From NCBI RefSeq assembly GCF_001761325.1, contig NZ_CP017478.1, forward strand, positions 2,749,501 through 2,813,500: DNA of 64,000 nt, written 5' to 3'. Positions 34,123-51,838 of the stretch are shown here, piece by piece. Under the pieces are notes generated by a model that saw only the letters and a list, made by a program, of their open reading frames with translations, made no database searches and was not told where the DNA came from. Within the stretch, counting starts at the first letter, position 1; the number at the start of each line of letters is the position of its first letter. Position numbers and translations under genes: made by a program. The DNA is from Urechidicola croceus. Lineage in GTDB: Bacteria; Bacteroidota; Bacteroidia; Flavobacteriales; Flavobacteriaceae.

Positions 34123-36207
34123 ATGAAAACAAAATATTCAAAAACTGGATTGTTGGCAATAGCAATTGCAGTAGGTGTATCATTAAATTCTTGTAAAAAA
34201 GAAATGGAAACACCCAAAGTTCCAGGAATTGATCTGGCTAAAATGGATCAAAATGTGAGTCCTAAAGAAGACTTTTTTAAACATGTTAATGGTAGTTGGC
34301 TAGAAAATACAGAAATACCTTCTGATAGAACGCGTTGGGGGAGTTTCGATGAATTACGTAAGAAAACAGACGAAGATGCTTTAGCGGTATTAAAAGAAGC
34401 TATAGCAAGTGGTGATTCAACATTAAAGGACGCTCAAAATGTAAATGTGTCTGATCAGATGAAAGCCGTGAATTATTTTCAAACAATTATGGACACTGTT
34501 TCTAGAGATGCTCAAGGTATTGAACCATTAAAACCTTATTTAAAAAAGATTGATGAGCTGCAAAGCATGGCTGATTTACAGAAGTTATTAATTGAGTTTG
34601 AACCTTACGGAGGAGCAGGGTTTTTTGGTTTTGGTGTAGGAGCAGATTTAAAAAATAGTAATATCAATGCGGCTTATGTTGGAGCAGGAACTTTAGGTTT
34701 AAATAGAGATTATTATGTAGATCAAGATGATGACACTAAAGCAAAAAGAGAGAAGTATAGAAAACATATTGCAAAAATGATGCAATATTTGGGCGAGTCT
34801 GAAGAGTTGGCAGCAAAGAATGCAGATAATATTTTGGCTTTTGAAACTAGAATGGCTGAACCAAGAATGACTAAAGAGGCTCGTAGAGATGCTCGTAATT
34901 TATATAACCCTAAATCAGTTGACGATATGGGTAAACTAATGCCTTCTATTGACTGGAATGTTTATTTTGAAGGAATTGGAGCAAAAAATGTAGATACAGT
35001 TATTGTAACTGATCCAAATTACTTTACTGCGTTAGAATCAATTTTTAAAGAAAATAATTTGAATGATTGGAAAAACTATTTACGTTGGTCATTAATTGAT
35101 GGTTCTGCAGGAGAGTTAAGTACTGAGATTGATAGAGTAAACTGGGAGTTTTACAGTAGAGATTTAAGAGGCTCAAAAGCACAAAGAGCAAGAGAAGAAA
35201 GAGCATTGAACACATTGAATGGTAGAATAGGTGAGGCTTTAGGAAAATTATATGTAGACAAACATTTTCCACCTGAAGCAAAGGAAAAAGCAGAAAAAAT
35301 GATTGCTAATGTGATGAAAGCATTTGAAAATAGAATCAATAATTTGGAATGGATGTCTGCTGAAACTAAAGAAAAAGCCCAAGAGAAGTTGGATAAAATG
35401 ACAGTTAAAATAGCATATCCAGATAAGTGGAAAGATTACTCTGATCTTGACACAAAAAATGTTGCTCAAGGCGGATCATATTTTCAAAATAATATCAATA
35501 TCTCTAAATGGAATTTTTATCAAGATATTGAAAAAATTGGAAAAGAAGTTGATAAATCAGAATGGGGAATGGCACCACAAGTTGTGAATGCTTATTTCAA
35601 CCCACAAAACAATGAAATTGTATTTCCAGCAGCAATTTTACAACCACCTTTCTATAATTATCAAGCAGATGAAGCTGTGAATTATGGAGGTATAGGAGCT
35701 GTAATTGGTCATGAAATCTCACATTGTTTTGATGATTCTGGAGCGCGTTTTGATGCAGATGGAAATCTTAATAATTGGTGGACTGAACAAGATTTAGAAA
35801 AATTTACTGCAGAAGGAAAGAAGTTGGCTGAACAATATGATGCTGCAGAAGTACTTCCAGATGTTCATATCAATGGAGCATTTACTTTAGGTGAAAATAT
35901 TGGAGATTTAGGTGGTATTAATGCTGCTTATGATGGTTTACAATTATTCCTAGCCGAAAATGGAAGACCAGATAATATTGATGGATTTACACCTGAACAA
36001 CGTCTATTCTTGTCTTGGGGAACTATTTGGAGAACTAAATATAGAGATGATGCGTTAAGAAATCAAATTAAAACTGATCCTCATTCACCAGGTACTCATA
36101 GAGCATTTATGCCACTTCAAAATGTTGATGCTTTCTATGAAGCATTTGATATTAAAGAAGGAGATAAAATGTATTTAAAACCAGAAGATAGAGTAAAAAT
36201 CTGGTAG
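34123..36207 (+). CDS. M13 family metallopeptidase (neprilysin-like), lipoprotein
   Basis: A 694-aa zinc endopeptidase with a lipoprotein signal (residues 1-24, ending GVSLNSC). The peptidase domain has the zinc motif VIGHEISHCFDD near residue 530 and the third ligand in ENIGDLGGINA near 590, with FFKHVNGSWLENTEIPSDR near the N-terminus, all typical of M13. Predicted to act in the envelope on peptides. The length is normal. A terminator follows at 36229. No neighbour clarifies its substrate. Confidence 0.93.
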   Translation: MKTKYSKTGLLAIAIAVGVSLNSCKKEMETPKVPGIDLAKMDQNVSPKEDFFKHVNGSWLENTEIPSDRTRWGSFDELRKKTDEDALAVLKEAIASGDSTLKDAQNVNVSDQMKAVNYFQTIMDTVSRDAQGIEPLKPYLKKIDELQSMADLQKLLIEFEPYGGAGFFGFGVGADLKNSNINAAYVGAGTLGLNRDYYVDQDDDTKAKREKYRKHIAKMMQYLGESEELAAKNADNILAFETRMAEPRMTKEARRDARNLYNPKSVDDMGKLMPSIDWNVYFEGIGAKNVDTVIVTDPNYFTALESIFKENNLNDWKNYLRWSLIDGSAGELSTEIDRVNWEFYSRDLRGSKAQRAREERALNTLNGRIGEALGKLYVDKHFPPEAKEKAEKMIANVMKAFENRINNLEWMSAETKEKAQEKLDKMTVKIAYPDKWKDYSDLDTKNVAQGGSYFQNNINISKWNFYQDIEKIGKEVDKSEWGMAPQVVNAYFNPQNNEIVFPAAILQPPFYNYQADEAVNYGGIGAVIGHEISHCFDDSGARFDADGNLNNWWTEQDLEKFTAEGKKLAEQYDAAEVLPDVHINGAFTLGENIGDLGGINAAYDGLQLFLAENGRPDNIDGFTPEQRLFLSWGTIWRTKYRDDALRNQIKTDPHSPGTHRAFMPLQNVDAFYEAFDIKEGDKMYLKPEDRVKIW

Positions 36208-36228
36208 TACTAAAATTATATATATATT

Positions 36229-36258
36229 AAAAGCACTCATAATTATGAGTGCTTTTTT
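36229..36258 (+). terminator. Terminator after the M13 peptidase gene
   Basis: Perfect stem AAAAGCACTCAT (36229-36240), AATT loop, ATGAGTGC plus T run (36245-36258). Confidence 0.9.
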
Positions 36259-36311
36259 ATGCGTTTAATAATAGTTTGATAATTAATTCTTACTTTTAAT
36301 TTTATTTAAAT

Positions 36312-37175
36312 ATGAAATTACAAGAAATAGAGCGAGTAAAGAAGATTACAAAAAAAGACTTTGTTAATAATTACTTTAAACCTCAAAAACCTGTAGTTAT
36401 TGAGGGTTTAATTGAAGATTGGCCGGCATTTGACAAGTGGAATTTAGATTATATGAAGCAAGTTGCAAATGATAAAGTTGTGCCTTTATATGATGATAGA
36501 CCAGTTGATTATAAAGATGGCTTTAATGAGCCACATGCAACAATGAGGATGAGTGAGTATGTTGATTTATTGCAATCAGAACCGACAAAATATCGAATTT
36601 TCTTATGGAATATTTTAAAAGAAATTCCACAACTACAAAACGATTTTTATTTCCCAGATATTGGATTGAAATTGATGAAAAAATTACCTATGCTGTTTTT
36701 TGGAGGAAGAGATTCATATACTTTTATGCACTATGATATTGATTTAGCAAATATTTTACATTTTCATTTTGAAGGTAAAAAACAATGTATTTTATTTGAT
36801 CAAAATCAAAATGATTTTTTGTATAAAATTCCACATTCATTGATAACAAGAGAAGATATTGATTTTTCTAACCCTGATTTTGAAAAATGGCCTGCACTTA
36901 AAAAAGCTCAAGGTTTTATTACTGAACTTGAACATGGAAATATGCTGTATATGCCAGAAGGATATTGGCATTATATGAAATACCTTAGTCCTGGATTTTC
37001 AATGAGTTTAAGAGCGATTGCTCGTAAACCTAAAAACTTTACTCGTGCAATTTATAATATTTTCATAATGCGTCATTATGATAATATGATGCGTCGATTT
37101 AAAGGGCAAAAATGGATTGATTGGAAAAATGAACAAGCAATAATTAGAACGAATAAAACGAATGGTATTATTTAA
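36312..37175 (+). CDS. Cupin-8/JmjC-like iron(II) oxygenase domain protein
   Basis: A 287-aa protein of the cupin-8/JmjC fold. PVVIEGLIEDWPAFDKWN near residue 32 is the entry motif, the HxD metal pair is in TFMHYDID near residue 140, and the distal His is in YMPEGYWHYMKYLSPG near 220. Relatives are 2-oxoglutarate/Fe(II)-dependent hydroxylases. The substrate is unknown; the presence of sucAB in the window is not informative. It has a terminator upstream and ends 8 bp inside the convergent recX gene. Confidence 0.82.
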   Translation: MKLQEIERVKKITKKDFVNNYFKPQKPVVIEGLIEDWPAFDKWNLDYMKQVANDKVVPLYDDRPVDYKDGFNEPHATMRMSEYVDLLQSEPTKYRIFLWNILKEIPQLQNDFYFPDIGLKLMKKLPMLFFGGRDSYTFMHYDIDLANILHFHFEGKKQCILFDQNQNDFLYKIPHSLITREDIDFSNPDFEKWPALKKAQGFITELEHGNMLYMPEGYWHYMKYLSPGFSMSLRAIARKPKNFTRAIYNIFIMRHYDNMMRRFKGQKWIDWKNEQAIIRTNKTNGII

Positions 37176-37638
37176 CTAACTCATTTACTTTTTGATATAC
37201 TAAATTAGATTCCCAACCGCGATATAGTAAATAATCCATTAATTTTTTCTTTTTCTTAAAAATATTAGATTCTTTGATGGACTCAAAACGTTTTTGAGCA
37301 AGTTCATTGAATGTATTGATATAATCATCTTCACTAATTTCTTTTAGTGCAACTTTAATTAAATATTCTGAAATATCTCTGAATTTTAATTCACGAACGA
37401 TTCGTTGTTTTCCCCATTTTTTAATTCTAAATTTTCCTCTAGCAAAACTTTTCGCAAATCGCTCTTCATTTAAAAAATTGTGTTCTATAAGATGTGGTAT
37501 TATTACTTCTTGAGCTTGAGCAATCATATTATAGTCTCTTAATTTTTGTTCAATTTCTTTATGACATCTATCTTGATAGGCACAATATTTTTCAAGTGCT
37601 CGTTTTGCCTCTTCAACGGTATATGTTTTTTGTTGCAT
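37168..37638 (-). CDS. recX: Regulatory protein RecX
   Basis: A 156-aa modulator of RecA filaments built from three-helix repeats: YTVEEAKRALEKYCAYQDRCHKEIE at the start, then FLNEERFAKSFARGKFRIKKWGKQRI and the last repeat KKKKKLMDYLLYRGWESNLV. Length is normal. No recA is nearby. A TAAGTTTG -7 box (37643-37650) predicts a transcription start about 1 nt before the ATG, suggesting a leaderless message. It overlaps the convergent cupin gene by 8 bp. Confidence 0.92.
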   Translation of the reverse strand: MQQKTYTVEEAKRALEKYCAYQDRCHKEIEQKLRDYNMIAQAQEVIIPHLIEHNFLNEERFAKSFARGKFRIKKWGKQRIVRELKFRDISEYLIKVALKEISEDDYINTFNELAQKRFESIKESNIFKKKKKLMDYLLYRGWESNLVYQKVNELVK

Positions 37639-37642
37639 ATCG

Positions 37643-37650
37643 CAAACTTA
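37643..37650 (-). promoter_or_regulatory. -7 box of recX
   Basis: The minus strand reads TAAGTTTG, a perfect TAnnTTTG. Predicted start about 37639, directly before the ATG at 37638. No clear -33 box. Confidence 0.45.
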
Positions 37651-37677
37651 CTGATTTTTTTTGATGCTATAACGAAA

Positions 37678-37704
37678 GAAACCGATACTAAAAGCATCGG
37701 TTTC
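37678..37704. repeat. Hairpin upstream of recX
   Basis: Stem GAAACCGAT (37678-37686) and ATCGGTTTC (37696-37704), 9-nt loop. It is in the divergent recX/kinase gap; no clean T run follows on either strand, so it is not a convincing terminator. Confidence 0.4.
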
Positions 37705-37797
37705 ATTTCGGATTTTTTTGAGGTGATAACTAAAATAATCTTATGTAAAAGTATGCGTTTTTACAATGCAAACAACTTATTGTTAATGATTTGAACT

Positions 37798-37821
37798 AAT
37801 ATAAGGGAAGTCCCTTATATT
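37798..37821. promoter_or_regulatory. Palindromic operator candidate before the kinase gene
   Basis: Perfect arms AATATAAGGGA (37798-37808) and TCCCTTATATT (37811-37821) with a 2-nt AG spacer. It overlaps the -33 box of the promoter that follows. A near copy is at 40682-40699. Likely binding site for a dimeric regulator, perhaps the response regulator of this locus. Confidence 0.65.
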
Positions 37822-37847
37822 GATTATTTAATTTAGATTTACTTTTG
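37819..37847 (+). promoter_or_regulatory. Promoter of the second two-component operon
   Basis: ATTG (37819-37822), 17-nt spacer, TACTTTTG (37840-37847). Predicted start about 37851, 27 nt before the kinase ATG. The palindrome directly upstream would place a regulator against the polymerase. Confidence 0.6.
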
Positions 37848-37877
37848 ATACACCTATATTTGAATAAAATTAATTAT

Positions 37878-39902
37878 ATGAATAATTCGACTAAAATAAA
37901 TATTGTTTTTACTTTGTTTTTTGCCATATCTCTAAACTGTATTTCTCAAAAACCAGTAGATGATTTTATGACTATTTTAAATTCAACTCAAGATGAATAT
38001 TTAAAATTAAATACTTTAGATTCAATTACTCACATTTTAAGTAAAACAGATGAATTAAGTAGTATTCCTTATGAAGTGCAGTTTATTGATTTGGCGCTAG
38101 AACTTAAAGAATATGATAAAGCAGCAATGTCGGCTATAAGAGTTTTTTACCCTTATAAATATTTAAAAAATGATTCAGAAAAATCATTGGCACAACTAAA
38201 CAAAGTATTACCTTATATTGATTCAATATCTATTACTAAATATAAAGGAGGATTATATGTAAAAAAAGCAGGAGCGTATTTTGATTCTGATACAAAAAAG
38301 GCAATCAAAAATTATGACTTAGCCGTAAAAAATTACTCTGATAAAGATTCGATAGATATTGCTGATGCTATTTATTTTAAAGCACAAGCTCATACAATGC
38401 TAGGAAGTTATGTTGATGCTATAAAATCATATAAAGAGTCATATACATATTATGAAAACCTTAATGATACAAGTTATATGTTGAATGTTAAAAACAATAT
38501 GGCTAGTTTGTATAACGAATTAAACTTAACAAATGAGGCTCAAAAAACATTAAATTCAGTTAAAGAAATTTTAAAAACTACAGATGATTCTAATGCTTTA
38601 ATTAATTCAATGTTTGAAGAGGCAAATATCTTTAGAATAAAGAAAGATTTTTCAAAAGAAGAAAAGAAAATACTTCAAATAGATTCTATACTTAATACAT
38701 TAGATGTAAAATCTCAAAAATATAATTTTTTAAAGACGAATGTCATTTTAACTAAACTTTATGCTGATAGAGGAGATGTTAAAAATGCTACATACTATTT
38801 TAACAATTTAGAAAAAGATATAGAATATATTACAAATTCAGAGTATACACATTTGATATATTTAAACGCAAAAATAAAATATTTAAATCTTATTGGAAAG
38901 CATCAACAAGCGTTAGAGTCTGCTAAGTTTATGCTAAAAATGGCAAATAAAATTAATAATTTCCACGAAATTCAATTTGCAGAAGGACATTTAGTTGATA
39001 CATATCAAAAATTGAATCAACAAGCAAAAGCTTTTCCTCATTTATTAAAAATGAAGGAGTTAAAAGACTCAATATTTAATGCGCAAAGTACCAATAGTTT
39101 GTTGTATTTTCAATCGTTATTTCAAACAGAAGAAAATGAAAAAAATCTGTTAGTGAAGCAAAATGAAATAGAACTTTTAGAGCAAAGTGAAAAATATACC
39201 AAGCGTATTTCAATATTTGGATTTGTTGGTTTGGGTTTACTTTCGCTAGCCTTATTTTTATGGGTAAAAAGAAAATCATTATTAAAAGAAAAGAAGTTGC
39301 AAGAAGACTTTACTTCGGAATTATTAAATTTTCAAGAACAAGAAAAAAAGAGAGTATCTGAAAACCTGCATGATGGATTAGGGCAAAGTTTATTATTAAT
39401 TAAAAATAAAATTGTACTTAATAATGATATTGAAACCCAAAAAATATTAGACTCCGTTATAAATGAAGTCCATACAATTTCTCATGGATTGCACCCTTTT
39501 CAATTAGAAGAATTAGGTTTAACTGAAGCAATAAAAAGTATTATTGAACAAGTAAGTGACAATTCGGAAACATTTATTTCTTCTGATATTGAGGATATTA
39601 ATGGTATATTTACCAAAAAACAAGAGTTAAATATATACCGAACAGTTCAGGAAAGTTTGAATAATATGATGAAACATTCTAAAGCCGAAGCCTGTAGAGT
39701 AGAAATTGAAAAACAAAAAAGTAAGGTTAAAATATCTATTATTGATAATGGAGTAGGATTTGATTTTACTGAAGAATATAGTAAAATAGGTAGTTTAGGC
39801 TTGAAAACATTAAAAGAGCGAGTTCGATTTCTGGATGGTATTATGAGTTTTAATTCTGAAAAAAATAAAGGAACTGAAATGTTTATTACAATCCCTATAT
39901 GA
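37878..39902 (+). CDS. Sensor histidine kinase with TPR sensor domain
   Basis: A 674-aa kinase using the ATG at 37878 (a longer frame starts at a TTG at 37845, before the predicted transcription start). Signal peptide at residues 1-24, a periplasmic tetratricopeptide-repeat region (about 30-420), a membrane segment (about 443-463), a HisKA_3 domain with His498 in ENLHDGLGQSLLL, and a HATPase domain with LNNMMKHSKA and DNGVGFD. The TPR part probably binds a protein or peptide signal. It overlaps the regulator gene by 4 bp (ATGA). Confidence 0.93.
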   Translation: MNNSTKINIVFTLFFAISLNCISQKPVDDFMTILNSTQDEYLKLNTLDSITHILSKTDELSSIPYEVQFIDLALELKEYDKAAMSAIRVFYPYKYLKNDSEKSLAQLNKVLPYIDSISITKYKGGLYVKKAGAYFDSDTKKAIKNYDLAVKNYSDKDSIDIADAIYFKAQAHTMLGSYVDAIKSYKESYTYYENLNDTSYMLNVKNNMASLYNELNLTNEAQKTLNSVKEILKTTDDSNALINSMFEEANIFRIKKDFSKEEKKILQIDSILNTLDVKSQKYNFLKTNVILTKLYADRGDVKNATYYFNNLEKDIEYITNSEYTHLIYLNAKIKYLNLIGKHQQALESAKFMLKMANKINNFHEIQFAEGHLVDTYQKLNQQAKAFPHLLKMKELKDSIFNAQSTNSLLYFQSLFQTEENEKNLLVKQNEIELLEQSEKYTKRISIFGFVGLGLLSLALFLWVKRKSLLKEKKLQEDFTSELLNFQEQEKKRVSENLHDGLGQSLLLIKNKIVLNNDIETQKILDSVINEVHTISHGLHPFQLEELGLTEAIKSIIEQVSDNSETFISSDIEDINGIFTKKQELNIYRTVQESLNNMMKHSKAEACRVEIEKQKSKVKISIIDNGVGFDFTEEYSKIGSLGLKTLKERVRFLDGIMSFNSEKNKGTEMFITIPI

Positions 39903-40528
39903 TAAAACCCACAATTGTAATTGCTGATGATCATCCATTATTATTGGCTGGTTTAAAATCATTTTTATTAAACAAAAATTATAATATTGTTGCCGAGGCT
40001 GAAGATGGTATAACCGCTTATAATAATATAGTAAAATACAATCCTGATATTGCAATTTTAGATATTAAAATGCCTAAAATGTCTGGAATTGAAATTGCAC
40101 GTATGTGTAAAAAAAACAATATTTCTACCAAAATTATTATCATCACTTTATATAAAGAAAAATCGTTGTATACTGAAGCACAAAAGTTAAATATTTCTGG
40201 ATATATATTTAAGGAATTTGCTTTGTCAGAAATTGAAGATTGTATAAAACATATAATTACCAATGGGCATTATTTTAGTCCAAAAATTGCTGAGTATTTA
40301 AAAATAGATGTAGATAGTGATAATAAGATTGAAAAATTAACAAAGTCAGAACGTAAAATCTTGCAACTAATTTCTGAAAGTTATACAACTAATGAAATAT
40401 CTGAAAGGTTATTTATTTCTTCAAAAACAGTTGAAAAACATAGAACTAATATTTCTAAAAAACTTGAGTTAAACGGAAAAACAAATAGTTTATTAATTTG
40501 GGCAAAAGAGAATAAAAAATTAATTTAA
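39899..40528 (+). CDS. LuxR/NarL-family response regulator
   Basis: A 209-aa regulator with receiver domain (residues 1-120, acidic pair DD10-11, phospho-acceptor Asp55 in IAILDIKMPKMSG) and a LuxR-type helix-turn-helix (about 142-205, ERKILQLISESYTTNEISER then SSKTVEKHRTNI). It should be phosphorylated by the TPR kinase. Palindromes near both ends of the locus are candidate binding sites, consistent with dimeric NarL-family binding. Confidence 0.94.
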   Translation: MIKPTIVIADDHPLLLAGLKSFLLNKNYNIVAEAEDGITAYNNIVKYNPDIAILDIKMPKMSGIEIARMCKKNNISTKIIIITLYKEKSLYTEAQKLNISGYIFKEFALSEIEDCIKHIITNGHYFSPKIAEYLKIDVDSDNKIEKLTKSERKILQLISESYTTNEISERLFISSKTVEKHRTNISKKLELNGKTNSLLIWAKENKKLI

Positions 40529-40529
40529 A

Positions 40530-40569
40530 ATAAAAGTCGCAATACAATTGATACACGACTTTTATTTTT
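40530..40569. terminator. Shared terminator of the regulator gene and a convergent RNA
   Basis: Stem ATAAAAGTCG (40530-40539) and CGACTTTTAT (40556-40565) with a 16-nt loop; T-rich on both strands, so it can act in both directions. Confidence 0.7.
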
Positions 40570-40648
40570 CATAACAATTCACTCTTAACTCCCCACAAAT
40601 TAAAAATAAATTGTTTTTTAATGTTATAAAATATCCCAACATTTATTT
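40530..40648 (-). ncRNA. Candidate small RNA convergent with the response regulator
   Basis: The minus strand carries a promoter at 40652-40682 and the bidirectional terminator at 40530-40569, giving an RNA of about 119 nt with no gene of note (only a 15-codon frame inside the terminator region). It would have a 5' hairpin AATGTT/AACATT (plus coordinates 40620-40643), an AU-rich middle and a G-rich single-stranded stretch GTGGGGAG before the terminator stem. Inferred only from signals. Confidence 0.5.
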
Positions 40649-40651
40649 TTA

Positions 40652-40682
40652 CAAATATGAGGTATAAATTAAAGTAAGTCAA
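40652..40682 (-). promoter_or_regulatory. Minus-strand promoter of the candidate small RNA
   Basis: On the minus strand TTG (40682-40680), 20-nt spacer, CATATTTG (40659-40652; one mismatch to TAnnTTTG). Predicted start about 40648. A palindrome lies directly upstream at 40682-40699. Confidence 0.5.
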
Positions 40683-40699
40683 TAAGGGTAGTCCCTTAT
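40682..40699. promoter_or_regulatory. Second copy of the ATAAGGG palindrome
   Basis: Arms ATAAGGG (40682-40688) and CCCTTAT (40693-40699) with spacer TAGT; the first copy has spacer AAGT. Read on the minus strand, its distance to the -7 box is 22 nt, against 21 nt at the kinase promoter. Confidence 0.65.
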
Positions 40700-40714
40700 A
40701 AGTGTTGCTTAAAT

Positions 40715-40750
40715 AAAAAAAAGCGTTCATCATTGATGAACGCTTTTTTT
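40715..40750. terminator. Terminator after the RND efflux operon
   Basis: Stem GCGTTCATC (40723-40731) and GATGAACGC (40735-40743), ATT loop, flanked by A and T runs, so active on both strands; it ends the minus-strand RND gene 22 nt earlier. Confidence 0.85.
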
Positions 40751-40771
40751 ATTTAGTATTAATTTTTATAA

Positions 40772-43700
40772 TTAAGAAATTTGTTTTCTTAAGAATATTC
40801 TTCTTTTTAGTTTGTTAACAAGATAAAAGAGAACAGGAACAATAATAAGAGTTAGGAATGTTGCAAAAAACAATCCATAAATAACTGTCCAAGCCAATGG
40901 TCCCCAGAAAATAACATTATCTCCACCCATATAAATGTGTGGGTTAAATTCACTAAACAATGTAAAGAAGTTAATGTTAAGTCCAATTGCCAATGGTATA
41001 AGACCTAATATTGTAGTGATTGCCGTTAATAATACAGGTCTTAAACGCGCTTTTCCTCCAGTAATAATTGCTTTAGCTATGTCATCATTACTTAGTCTTT
41101 CTTTTTCATCAATATTTAATTCAACTCTTTTTCTATCCATTAACAGTTGAGTATAATCAAGAAGAACTACACCATTATTAACAACAATACCTGCGAGTGA
41201 AATTATTCCCATCATTGTCATCATAATTACAAATGAACTTCCGGTAATAACAATTCCGCCAAATACACCAATTAAACTCAAAAATATTGCAAGCATAATA
41301 ATTGCAGGTTTTGATATAGAATTGAATTGAAAAATTAAAATTAAAAAGATCAATCCAAGACCTGTAAAAAATGCGCCCATTAAAAATTTCATTTGTTTTT
41401 CTTGCTCTTCAATCTGACCAGTATAATCAACTTTAATATCATTAGATAGTCCACTAAAATCAGTCATTTCATTTTGGATTTGTGAAACAATTGCAGCAGC
41501 ATCGGTAAATCCGGGTGCTAAGGCAGAATAAACAGTAACTACTCTTTTAGCAGATTTGTGCTTAATTGCACTAAAACCAGAATTATTTTTTTGTTTAGCT
41601 ACTGCTGAAACAGGGATTTCTTTGATTTGACCAGAAGCCATATCTCTAAAAGTTATCTTTTGATTAAATAGTGCGCTTGTATTATATTTATTATCTTCAT
41701 TAAATCGAACATAAATATCGTAGTCTTCGCCATTTTCTTTATAAACTCCAGCTTTTGCGCCAAAAATAGAATTTCTTAATTGTTGTCCAACTTGTCCTGA
41801 ACTTATTCCTAAAGTTCCGGCTTTTTTTCTGTCAATTTCTACTAGCATTGATGGTTTAGATTTATTGACATCAATTTTAAGTTCGTCAATTCCAGGAATG
41901 TTTTTTGAATTGATAAAATCACGCATTTTTTCAGCAGTAACAATTAACTCAGAATAATCCTCACCTTCAATTTCAATATTGATTGGAGCACCAGCTGGTG
42001 GTCCGTTAGCATCTTTTTCTACAGAAATCAATACTCCAGGATAAATACCAACTAAAGCCTCTTGAACTTTTTGACGTAGTAATTCACTATCTCTTCCGCG
42101 TCTATATTTATACTCTCTCATTGAAGCAGTAATTTTTCCACGATGCGGCATTTCGGCAGTAGATCCACCATCTGTTTGTGGATTTCCTGCTCCTTCACCA
42201 ACTTGAGATACTGCTGATTCAACTAAATAATTATAGCCATTATCTAAATTTTCTTCTGCATTTATTATCTCAAATACTTTTTTTTCAATTTCTTTAGTGA
42301 TAGTATTTGTTTTTTCTATATCTGTACCTTGAGGGTATTCTATATATACAATAATTTGATTTGGTTTATTATCTGGAAAAAACTCTACTTTGGTACGTTG
42401 GGAGGCAACTGATGCAATAAAACCACCAATAGCAACAAATAGTAATATAAAAGTAGCGATTGAAATCACTTGAGGTCTCCACCCTTTTAAGACAGTAGTT
42501 AATGTTTTTTCATATATTCTTTCCCAACGAGGAAGAATCTTGTCTTGAAAGTAATTTGCCATTTTTCTAAGCAATAACCTATACACCCATAGCATAATTG
42601 CTGTGAATACCATAACGCTACCGAGTGCTCTGTATTCGCCACCAAAAATTAAAATTAAACCTCCGATAACAATTAAAATACCTGAGATGTAAATAATTCT
42701 TTTTAAAGGCATTTCACTATCTTCGGTAGTCATGAATTGTGAAACCATTACAGAATTAAAAAAGATTGCAACAAATAAAGAAGAACCTAAAACTACTGAA
42801 AGTGTTATTGGAAAATAAATCATAAATTGACCCATTACTCCAGGCCATAATCCTAATGGAATAAATGCTGCTACTGTTGTTAACGTCGAAATAATAATAG
42901 GAAAAGCAATTTCGCTAATTCCTTTTTTAGCTGCCTCAATTCGATTCATTCCTTCTTCATCCATCAATCGGTATATGTTTTCAACAACAACAATTCCGTT
43001 GTCAACAAGCATTCCAAGTCCCATAATTAATCCAAAAAGAATCATTGTGTTCATAGTATATCCCAACATATTTAAAATCATCAAAGACATAAACATCGAC
43101 ATTGGAATTGCAAAACCAACAAATAGTGCATTTTTAAATCCTAAGAAAAACATTAGCACTCCAACAACTAAGATAATTCCAAATATGATATTGTTTACCA
43201 AATCATCAACTTGACCTATTGTTTTTGACGATAAATCATTTGAAATAGTAACTTTCAGATCAGGAGGAAAAATATTGGCAACAGCATCATCTTTTATTTC
43301 TTTTATTTTTTCAGCTGCAGCAACCATATTTTTTCCTGCACGTTTTTTTACATCAAGCATTACAACGCGATCACCAAATTCTCTAGCGTAAGTTGTTCTT
43401 TCTTTTTCTTTAAAAGTTACGCTTGCAACATCTTTTAAGTAAATTGGATTGTCGTTTTCTGATTTTACAACAAAATTTTCTAGATTAGTTGGGTTTTCAA
43501 TTTCTCCAATTACCCTTATGGTTCTTCTTTGTCCACTTGCTATTAAGTTTCCTGCGGACATTGTTACATTTCCATTTTGAATTGCACCTGTAATATCGCT
43601 AAAACTTACTTGAGCTGCCATCATTTTATAGATATCTACAGCTACTTCAACTTCTTTTTCTTGGGCACCACGAATATCTACTTGTTTTATTTCGGTCAAT

Positions 43701-44245
43701 CCTTCAATTTCGTCTTCAAGATATTCTCCAAATTCTTTTAATTTATCAACAGGATAATCACCTGAAATATTAATATTAAGAATTGGCATTTCTTCTGATA
43801 GGTTTAAATCAAAGATATTAGGCTCAACTTTGGCATTATTAAAAGTTGGCCAATCTTCTCCAGAAGTTTCTCCTTCAACTTTGTCTTTTACTTTTACTTT
43901 TGCATCGTCAACTGAAATATTTTCATCAAACTCTACAATAATCATTGAATAATCTTCCTGTGATGTTGAGGTAATGTCAACTACATTACTCACTGTTTTT
44001 AAAACATCCTCAAGAGGATCGGTAATCAATTTTTCAATATCTTCTGCTGTATTTCCAGGGTAAATAGAACTGATATAAATTTTAGTTTCTTTAATCTCTG
44101 GGAAATCTTCTCGAGGCATTGTAAGGTATGCAGATATCCCAAGAAATAAAATCATTGCCATCATTACATATATGACAGTTTTGTTTTTTATAGCCCAAGA
44201 TGATAACCCGAATTCTTTATCTAGGTTTTTTTGTTCGTTAGTCAT
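40772..44245 (-). CDS. Efflux RND transporter permease subunit
   Basis: An 1157-aa inner-membrane RND pump, the energy-coupled part of a three-component efflux system. The start SWAIKNKTVIYVMMAMILFLG is the first membrane segment; the periplasmic porter loops and twelve segments follow. The fourth-segment proton-relay motif reads GMLVDNGIVVVENIY, that is Asp-Asn where AcrB has Asp-Asp, as in many non-proteobacterial pumps. Likely substrates are hydrophobic drugs, bile-like compounds or lipids; nothing points to metals. It follows the adaptor gene by 10 bp. Confidence 0.95.
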   Translation of the reverse strand: MTNEQKNLDKEFGLSSWAIKNKTVIYVMMAMILFLGISAYLTMPREDFPEIKETKIYISSIYPGNTAEDIEKLITDPLEDVLKTVSNVVDITSTSQEDYSMIIVEFDENISVDDAKVKVKDKVEGETSGEDWPTFNNAKVEPNIFDLNLSEEMPILNINISGDYPVDKLKEFGEYLEDEIEGLTEIKQVDIRGAQEKEVEVAVDIYKMMAAQVSFSDITGAIQNGNVTMSAGNLIASGQRRTIRVIGEIENPTNLENFVVKSENDNPIYLKDVASVTFKEKERTTYAREFGDRVVMLDVKKRAGKNMVAAAEKIKEIKDDAVANIFPPDLKVTISNDLSSKTIGQVDDLVNNIIFGIILVVGVLMFFLGFKNALFVGFAIPMSMFMSLMILNMLGYTMNTMILFGLIMGLGMLVDNGIVVVENIYRLMDEEGMNRIEAAKKGISEIAFPIIISTLTTVAAFIPLGLWPGVMGQFMIYFPITLSVVLGSSLFVAIFFNSVMVSQFMTTEDSEMPLKRIIYISGILIVIGGLILIFGGEYRALGSVMVFTAIMLWVYRLLLRKMANYFQDKILPRWERIYEKTLTTVLKGWRPQVISIATFILLFVAIGGFIASVASQRTKVEFFPDNKPNQIIVYIEYPQGTDIEKTNTITKEIEKKVFEIINAEENLDNGYNYLVESAVSQVGEGAGNPQTDGGSTAEMPHRGKITASMREYKYRRGRDSELLRQKVQEALVGIYPGVLISVEKDANGPPAGAPINIEIEGEDYSELIVTAEKMRDFINSKNIPGIDELKIDVNKSKPSMLVEIDRKKAGTLGISSGQVGQQLRNSIFGAKAGVYKENGEDYDIYVRFNEDNKYNTSALFNQKITFRDMASGQIKEIPVSAVAKQKNNSGFSAIKHKSAKRVVTVYSALAPGFTDAAAIVSQIQNEMTDFSGLSNDIKVDYTGQIEEQEKQMKFLMGAFFTGLGLIFLILIFQFNSISKPAIIMLAIFLSLIGVFGGIVITGSSFVIMMTMMGIISLAGIVVNNGVVLLDYTQLLMDRKRVELNIDEKERLSNDDIAKAIITGGKARLRPVLLTAITTILGLIPLAIGLNINFFTLFSEFNPHIYMGGDNVIFWGPLAWTVIYGLFFATFLTLIIVPVLFYLVNKLKRRIFLRKQIS

Positions 44246-51693: not shown

Positions 51694-51715
51694 ATTATCA
51701 ATTACATAAAAATTT

Positions 51716-51744
51716 AAAAAACTCTCATTATTGAGGGTTTTTTT
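51716..51744 (+). terminator. Terminator or attenuator between rpmF and fabH
   Basis: Stem ACTCTCA/TGAGGGT with flanking A/T pairs, TTAT loop, then seven T. Since fabH, accB and accC follow in the same direction, it may be partly leaky. Confidence 0.8.
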
Positions 51745-51838
51745 GTGTTTTTTATTCAATAGTGAGTTAAAAACGACTTTTTTTGCCTTTTTTATGAAAT
51801 AATTTTCATTACTTTGAGCTACTTTTAAAAGTATAAAT

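Follow-up and report, generated by a model that had tools for sequence, protein, structure and literature searches.

Two putative operators of a LuxR/NarL-type regulator and a predicted small RNA at a two-component locus of Urechidicola croceus

The LuxR/NarL-type response regulator encoded in a two-component locus of Urechidicola croceus is well supported as the putative binder of two palindromes, one at each end of the locus, as the preliminary description had proposed and as comparison with relatives suggests. The window is the whole stretch of 64,000 nucleotides that was analysed (contig NZ_CP017478.1, positions 2,749,501 to 2,813,500); positions are counted from its first letter. The best explanation of the whole, which we consider probable, is a self-activating two-component system together with a small RNA at site 2. 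The TPR kinase would phosphorylate the NarL/FixJ-type regulator, a dimer of which would bind a single 18-bp palindrome, its centre 42-44 bp ahead of the transcription start, and would activate, rather than repress, transcription from a sigma-A promoter whose -7 box resembles TAnnTTTG. At site 1 this would activate the regulator's own kinase-regulator operon (autoregulation), and at site 2 it would start leftward transcription of a 121-nt RNA with three stem-loops, which would terminate at an inverted repeat common to RNA and operon and would act as such. The features are listed in Table 1.

Table 1. Features of the two-component locus and its surroundings in the window.
Feature	Position	Strand	Remarks
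Site 1	37798..37821	+	11-2-11 palindrome, core ATAAGGGAAGTCCCTTAT at 37801-37818; putative operator of the encoded regulator
Promoter 1 (predicted)	37820..37852	+	TTG 37820-37822; -7 box TACTTTTG 37840-37847; predicted start 37852
TPR sensor histidine kinase, 674 aa	37878..39902	+	TPR_12, HATPase_c
LuxR/NarL-type response regulator, 209 aa	39899..40528	+	Response_reg and GerE; proposed binder of both sites
Lys176 codon	40424..40426	+	Position 2 of the helix predicted at 175-188; relatives with the TACGT operator have Arg
Inverted repeat	40527..40568	both	Perfect outer stem of 13 bp; proposed as terminator in both directions
Predicted small RNA, 121 nt	40527..40647	-	Three stem-loops; ends in the inverted repeat
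26-aa ORF	40642..40562	-	Inside the predicted small RNA; alternative product
Promoter 2 (predicted)	40647..40682	-	TTG 40682-40680; -7 box CATATTTG 40659-40652; predicted start 40647
Site 2	40682..40699	-	ATAAGGGACTACCCTTAT as read on the minus strand; putative operator
Terminator-like hairpin, 16 pairs	40716..40750		Probably belongs to the RND pump gene, which is convergent
RND pump gene	40772..44245	-	Convergent

Both 18-bp palindromes (37801-37818 and 40682-40699) were found with the sequences first described, differing at one core base, and site 1 has the perfect arms of 11 bp claimed for it (37798-37808 and 37811-37821, with 2 bases between them). With up to three mismatches allowed, 4 strand-matches were obtained in the window, all of them at sites 1 and 2 (100 shuffles: mean 0.10, largest 2). 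A genome scan, suggested earlier as a check, found ATAAGGGN4CCCTTAT in exact form only at these two ends of the locus in the 3.43-Mb genome, the next best match having 2 mismatches. The 83 matches with up to three mismatches, compared with 126 for the reversed control pattern, represent no enrichment, and a large loose regulon is thus not visible in this genome. The shorter motif TAAGGGN4CCCTTA was present in 15 of 198 genomes including that of U. croceus, with two copies only here and in genome G011. Its promoter register was checked at one fetched place per genome; none of 13 foreign places was in exact register on either strand, one of them, L050, being 1 base off and adjoining the Lys-type regulator L106. 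Regarding G011, one place was in register on both strands and the second was out of register.

The distance from the CCCTTAT arm to the -7 box (21 nt at site 1, 22 nt at site 2) is as originally given, with boxes TACTTTTG and CATATTTG. The published flavobacterial sigma-A promoter has its -7 box, TAnnTTTG, at -12 to -5 (PMC9723704), and the predicted start at 37852 follows from this placement; of the six fixed positions, the box of the predicted promoter matches six at site 1 and five at site 2. Counted from the start predicted for the kinase-regulator transcript, site 1 would be centred at about -42.5, which departs by one base from the register seen in relatives; site 2, with a predicted centre at about -43.5, has exactly that register. 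The earlier claim of a promoter beside each palindrome holds for spacing and strands, but site 2 has no normal-size gene downstream: on its firing strand no reading frame of normal size follows, and the promoter points at the regulator gene from its 3' side.

The regulator combines a receiver (PF00072, E 6e-25) with a GerE domain (PF00196, E 4e-14), the combination by which NarL/FixJ (LuxR-type) regulators are recognised, and its phospho-acceptor D55 is invariant across 28 aligned sequences. The closest regulator found among relatives is 68% identical. The C-terminal part of the kinase resembles MctS, UhpB, LiaS and NarQ, each with a score under its cut-off.

Regulators of relatives were compared in a set of 126. 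It comprises the window, 60 regions that were best matches or chosen paralogues (the own genome supplied two of these), 20 loci taken from the kinase matches, the 7 loci that ranked best among 80, and all 38 foreign matches to the Lys-type regulator of locus L154 as query; it includes near-copies (L070/L251 and L345/L346). A similar palindrome, centred at about -43.5 and at a fixed distance from a TAnnTTTG-like box, adjoins the operon of many of these regulators. Among regulators with Arg at residue 176, the box stands at the common offset in 52 palindromes, and any one of 40 other offsets accounts for 0-9; in the Lys group the figures are 7 (five AGGG-type, two of L094) and 0-4. Some AGGG sites are off the exact register: site 1 and that of L106 by one base, and that of L340, with no box within 3 bases. 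In genome G285, the site by the kinase keeps the register with respect to the divergent gene rather than the kinase.

The half-site goes with residue 176. Regarding the 82 regulators with Arg, a non-coding TACGTN6ACGTA (as in the TACGT site TACGTGTTAACACGTA) lies by the operon in 61 and a non-coding AGGGN4CCCT in none, whereas the 39 regulators with Lys yielded 0 and 7, respectively (Fisher 1e-9, uncorrected for kinship among the 126 regulators). Five rows (N, Q, and L337, which is really Arg) belong to neither group. After addition of sites from a register scan, which was confined to loci lacking a strict TACGT site and skipped the stretch from -2300 to -700, 70 TACGT-type and 11 AGGG-type regulators were labelled. 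Residue 176 was the sole fully separating column of 209, with the receiver columns 38 and 21 nearly as separating (0.986 and 0.979 vs 1.0) and kinship not removed. (Note that this table is not blind: its labels take in nine Arg loci as well as L341 and L353, variants with AGGGG/CCCC, that were added after the scan, and also L234 and L106, both of which the frame mask had removed, the L106 site overlapping the end of the regulator gene.) AGGG together with Lys occurs in two separate tree clades, one with the window, L234, L154 and L076 and the other with L155, L339, L340 and L342, and also in the deeper rows L106 and L353. G285 and a Lacinutrix genome each have an Arg-type paralogue by TACGT sites and a Lys-type locus by AGGG sites.

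Lys alone does not predict the site, since 32 of the 39 Lys regulators (28 after the additions), mostly distant paralogues, have no non-coding AGGG site. Arg regulators without a TACGT site even after the additions number 12 of 82 (13 of 83 with L337). The change in L094 is small, as its sisters already have one TACGC half-site. Apart from the window, 37 kinase-regulator loci were found, 34 of them Arg-type, of which 31 have a different palindrome and three have none. The proposed footprinting upstream of orthologous kinases accordingly gave a divided result: literal ATAAGGG is absent from nearly all, but the half-site follows residue 176 and the spacing is kept. Literal conservation was discarded as a criterion, and its seeming refutation of the motif was overturned once the downstream TACGT palindromes were found. 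A half-site that tracks a residue of the recognition helix at constant spacing is a stronger argument for operators than plain conservation would be.

Site 2 is predicted to drive a short structured RNA and no second gene. The three stem-loops of the 121-nt stretch fold on the minus strand only (folding z -6.8); without the last hairpin, z is -6.0 on the minus strand and -0.9 on the plus strand. The inverted repeat is proposed to terminate both the regulator operon (plus strand) and the small RNA (minus strand); it is missing from a simple terminator scan because its loop exceeds the limit of that scan, and it is the only predicted terminator of the RNA. The RNA has one G-rich loop, GUGGG. In G285, the nearest relative, a site and box in register precede a short unit that resembles the site 2 unit and shows, by eye, a hairpin followed by a run of T; the 5' stem-loop of the L154 RNA is likewise similar. 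Many Arg-type relatives appear to drive, at the corresponding place, RNAs of about 70 nt or small proteins with one helix. A model of the RNA family of these relatives (R1: 5' end CTATTAAT, AGGGAG segment, GCTCT-type hairpin) yielded no match to 40527-40647 up to E 1 and none in the own genome up to E 0.001. Rfam gave six weak matches in 36000-42000, none at gathering score, and only tRNAs at 13 relatives' loci. Membership of the window RNA in Rfam families or in R1 was rejected on these results.

Site 2 might instead drive a 26-aa protein, MLGYFITLKNNLFLICGELRVNCYEK, which would leave the operator reading unchanged. Its ATG at 40642 lies 5 nt past the predicted start, and in 29 of the 31 Arg-type kinase loci with a site the same position encodes a protein of 30-49 aa with a hydrophobic stretch. 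A membrane helix is, however, not evident by eye in the product, Pfam gave no match, the frame sits in a long stem formed only on the minus strand, and a frame of 26 codons is probably not rare by chance at 30% G+C; we regard this as unlikely. That the palindromes serve another, unlinked regulator and lie here incidentally is quite improbable, given that the half-site goes with the helix residue of the linked regulator even where a genome has two paralogues, and that this operon lies between the two perfect sites, the genome having no others.

Operators of the encoded regulator are also preferred over a reading in which the palindromes belong to a mobile cassette carrying the locus, as its ends or as sites of recombination. 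Read in one orientation, the palindromes agree at 17 of 18 positions, and in 8 of 13 congeners recX and the pump homologue are 91-131 bp apart and the two-component block is absent; yet site 1 lies about 160 bp from recX, a target duplication was not found (by eye), and similar palindromes of relatives occur at other places, in promoter register. The junctions gave the cassette no support, and it is very improbable. Hardly credible is a role as RNA hairpins (terminator or leader): site 1 is terminator-like in the simple scan, but both sites lie upstream of the -7 box, hence outside the transcript served, and an RNA element offers no reason for fixed spacing to the box.

NarL/FixJ regulators such as VraR, EvgA and NarL bind palindromic operators beside promoters and are autoregulated. 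The regulator of the window shares their receiver and GerE domains, but its predicted promoters are of the flavobacterial TAnnTTTG type. Rsm/Csr RNAs sequester CsrA/RsmA via repeated GGA motifs. In the GacA/UvrY(SirA)-Rsm/Csr systems of gammaproteobacteria, the strongest targets of a LuxR/NarL-type regulator are small RNAs, and the operator is an 18-bp palindrome, TGTAAGN6CTTACA, centred near -182 at csrB (PMC4682653). The locus in the window would be similar in joining a palindrome and a structured RNA unit, here predicted from sequence, with such a regulator; it differs in promoter-proximal operators (predicted centres about -42.5 and -43.5) and in that the RNA unit lies right beside the operon of the regulator, and this operon is provided with its own site. 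Flavobacterium psychrophilum has the short RNAs Rfp1-89, including Rfp18, some of which have strong structure and are also conserved outside that species (PMC9723704). The predicted RNA would likewise be a short, structured flavobacterial RNA; in the accessible text of that paper the Rfp RNAs are not tied to a response regulator or a palindrome ('LuxR' and 'palindrom' have 0 occurrences). Among the titles and abstract openings listed, none concerned the motif, the two-component system or the RNA. No described regulator with half-sites TAAGGG or TACGT was found in the literature searched, and we know of none.

We give even chances to a broader proposal, an undescribed LuxR-type family of Flavobacteriaceae and other Bacteroidota whose core output is adjacent small RNAs, often in tandem arrays, or tiny membrane proteins, and whose paralogues are insulated by the Arg/Lys helix change with a swap from TACGT to AGGG, the window being Lys-type with a new RNA family. 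It would parallel Gac/Rsm. If correct, the reading of the locus would provide a natural specificity switch, perhaps of one residue, within a regulator family of very large size, and this switch could be tested in cells that contain the operators, promoters and paralogues together. It would also provide a compact circuit of Bacteroidota that leads from a two-component system to a small RNA, and a simple rule (helix residue, half-site, spacing about -43) predicting targets of the phylum's other LuxR-type regulators.

Secreted proteins adjoin AGGG sites in G285 and G011; two homologues of these in the own genome had no in-register site with up to three mismatches in the stretches fetched. WAGGGN4CCCTW occurs at six places in the own genome, namely sites 1 and 2 and four others, and a wider regulon was rejected because three of the four fall inside reading frames and the fourth adjoins a gene at its 3' end. 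This last place, with a box one base off register, may be a third, weak site.

The kinase-regulator locus occupies positions 37639-40771 of the window, and the most fitting interpretation is a two-component system that would feed two local outputs, its own operon and a small RNA. By its domain content, the regulator is assigned to the NarL/FixJ family. The paired palindromes of the preliminary description are present at both ends of the locus as described, and these are the only perfect copies of ATAAGGGN4CCCTTAT in the whole genome (3.43 Mb, one contig).

Coordinates of the features of the kinase-regulator locus and its flanks
Feature	Position	Strand	Remark
recX	37168-37638	-	flanks the locus
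Site 1 (palindrome)	37801-37818	+	before the kinase
TPR histidine kinase	37878-39902	+	
LuxR/NarL-type response regulator	39899-40528	+	
Site 2 (palindrome)	40682-40699	-	
RND pump gene	40772-44245	-	flanks the locus on the other side

According to PMC9723704, the -7 box of flavobacterial promoters (TAnnTTTG) spans -12 to -5, and start positions in the window were predicted from this box position. Relative to the predicted starts near 37852 (leaving a 26-nt leader ahead of the kinase) and near 40647 on the minus strand, the centers of site 1 and site 2 lie at about -42.5 and -43.5, respectively. In other bacteria, activators that contact the polymerase in the -35 region bind roughly this far from the start, and because of this match activation appears likelier than repression at both sites.

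On the minus strand, the segment from 40647 to 40527 is predicted to form three stem-loops (-33.8 kcal/mol, z -6.8); once the final hairpin is removed, the z values are -6.0 for the minus strand and -0.9 for the plus strand, a strand specificity that stems from G-U pairs in the middle stem. The inverted repeat proposed as the terminator of this RNA is not among the results of a simple terminator scan. The unit could instead encode a 26-aa peptide, which is less likely than an RNA product. If an RNA is made, it may also act antisense to the regulator mRNA through read-through. In its logic the proposed system would resemble GacA/UvrY-Rsm/Csr, but it is not filed there because its proposed operators lack the distant position that is characteristic of those systems. 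A literature search found no report of the palindrome motif or of the regulatory system.

In eight of 13 congeners, recX and the pump homologue (a distant one in G003) lie on one contig, separated by 91-131 bp without the kinase-regulator block, so that gene order points either to a gain in the window lineage or to a loss in others. In G001 and G002 the two genes are 4.3-4.4 kb apart with other content between them, and G004, G005 and G013 are uninformative by their coordinates. The best regulator match across the 13 congeners has 44% identity (G012), and a kinase match is absent from both congeners among the matches listed. The compared genomes contain no close orthologue: their closest regulator (68% identity) and kinase (42%) are both from G285, the nearest-relative genome.

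Among 37 other kinase-regulator loci, the exact motif is seldom seen, but palindromes of similar size are common beside the operon. Where the regulator has Arg at residue 176 (Lys in the window), 31 of 34 kinase-regulator loci carry a downstream site of the type TACGTN6ACGTA (TACGT site), mostly within ~40 nt of the stop codon and further away in two. All three Lys-type kinase loci have sites of the type AGGGN4CCCT (AGGG sites), upstream in L076 and L234 (in the latter before the kinase) and two of them downstream in L154, from an uncultured Lacinutrix. With 32 Arg-type sites aligned on their centers, +32 is A in 97%, and +35, +36 and +37 are T in 100, 100 and 94%, respectively. Window site 2, both L154 sites and the L076 site show exactly this register; the spacing of window site 1 is one base shorter, and at the L234 site the box is absent on the kinase side and present on the divergent side. 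Placed in the common register, TACGT[GA] and TAAGGG half-sites share G at -5 from the center and differ at -6 and -4, as well as at -3 where TACGT[GA] ends in A.

Pooling 38 class-wide regulators with the other selected loci gave 126 regulators. By strict non-coding counts, TACGTN6ACGTA occurs with 61 of 82 Arg regulators and none of 39 Lys regulators, and AGGGN4CCCT with none and seven, respectively (Fisher 1e-9, uncorrected for kinship); at two Arg loci an AGGG match lies within a reading frame. A motif-free scan for any near-palindrome with a box in register added nine Arg loci with TACGT sites and two Lys loci with AGGGG variants (L341 and L353), along with some unrelated single matches. 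Regarding the offset control, the Arg group has 52 palindromes at the common offset vs 0-9 at each of 40 others, and the Lys group seven vs 0-4 elsewhere, the seven being five AGGG-type sites (window, L154, L234, L342, L353) and two TACGC sites of L094. L155 and L339 have the box in register on one strand each, the L106 site is one base off register, and L340 is without a box within 3 bases. Of 209 columns, 176 alone divides the 70 TACGT regulators completely from the 11 AGGG regulators, and columns 38 and 21 nearly do so, as expected from kinship. Residue 176 is the second in a predicted helix (175-188; structure model, mean pLDDT 89) whose place in the GerE domain suggests the recognition helix. 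In the tree, AGGG/Lys regulators fall into two clades plus the deeper rows L106 and L353, and on well-supported branches the Arg label must change at least five times. L094, a lone Lys in an Arg clade, has TACGC in both halves of its two palindromes; its sisters have TACGT in one half-site and TACGC in the other. Both G285 and the Lacinutrix genome have both regulator types, each adjoining its own operator type. In L348 and L356, Asn occupies the switch position and the palindromes, in promoter register, resemble TAGGGG/TAGTGG, which may represent a third specificity.

Where no TPR kinase is adjacent, most TACGT promoters lead into ~70-nt segments with a 5' CTATTAAT, an AGGGAG segment and a GCTCT-type hairpin (61 segments listed, a few of another type). 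They are often in tandem, each preceded by its own TACGT palindrome and promoter, and to judge from sequence are probably small RNAs. Downstream of the regulator, tandem segments were seen at many of the loci L078-L103 and L116-L123; L375 and L376 have them too. The hairpin has at least one compensatory change in 11 of 13 pairs (31 chosen segments), and an Rfam search of 13 relatives' loci gave tRNA matches only, none to these segments. At the same place in kinase loci, a predicted 30-49-aa protein with an uncharged stretch is found in 29 of 31; L236 has both an RNA segment and a small protein. L064-L073, L075, L084 and most of L236-L253 have predicted proteins of 32-47 aa that contain a single hydrophobic stretch. 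They lie ~35-125 nt past the palindrome, many end in NYFVS or NYFVSYK, and the Arg-type regulators probably target them; they may also be feedback partners of the kinase. At 51695-51748 (+) the window weakly matches the RNA model of the relatives (E 0.036), probably by chance.

A second AGGG site of G285 lies 6 kb from the operon and has the box in register; a short unit follows in a convergent gap, with a hairpin and T-run recognized by eye. The first of the two Lacinutrix sites precedes a predicted RNA with a 5' stem-loop similar to that of the window RNA. In G109, a neighboring gene has two more AGGG sites ahead of it, one in register toward it. In G011, of the same genus (genome 69% complete), both strands carry the box in register at TAAGGGAAAACCCTTA (L062/L384), which stands before a 306-aa secreted-looking protein; regulator C51, one of two regulator matches there, has Arg.
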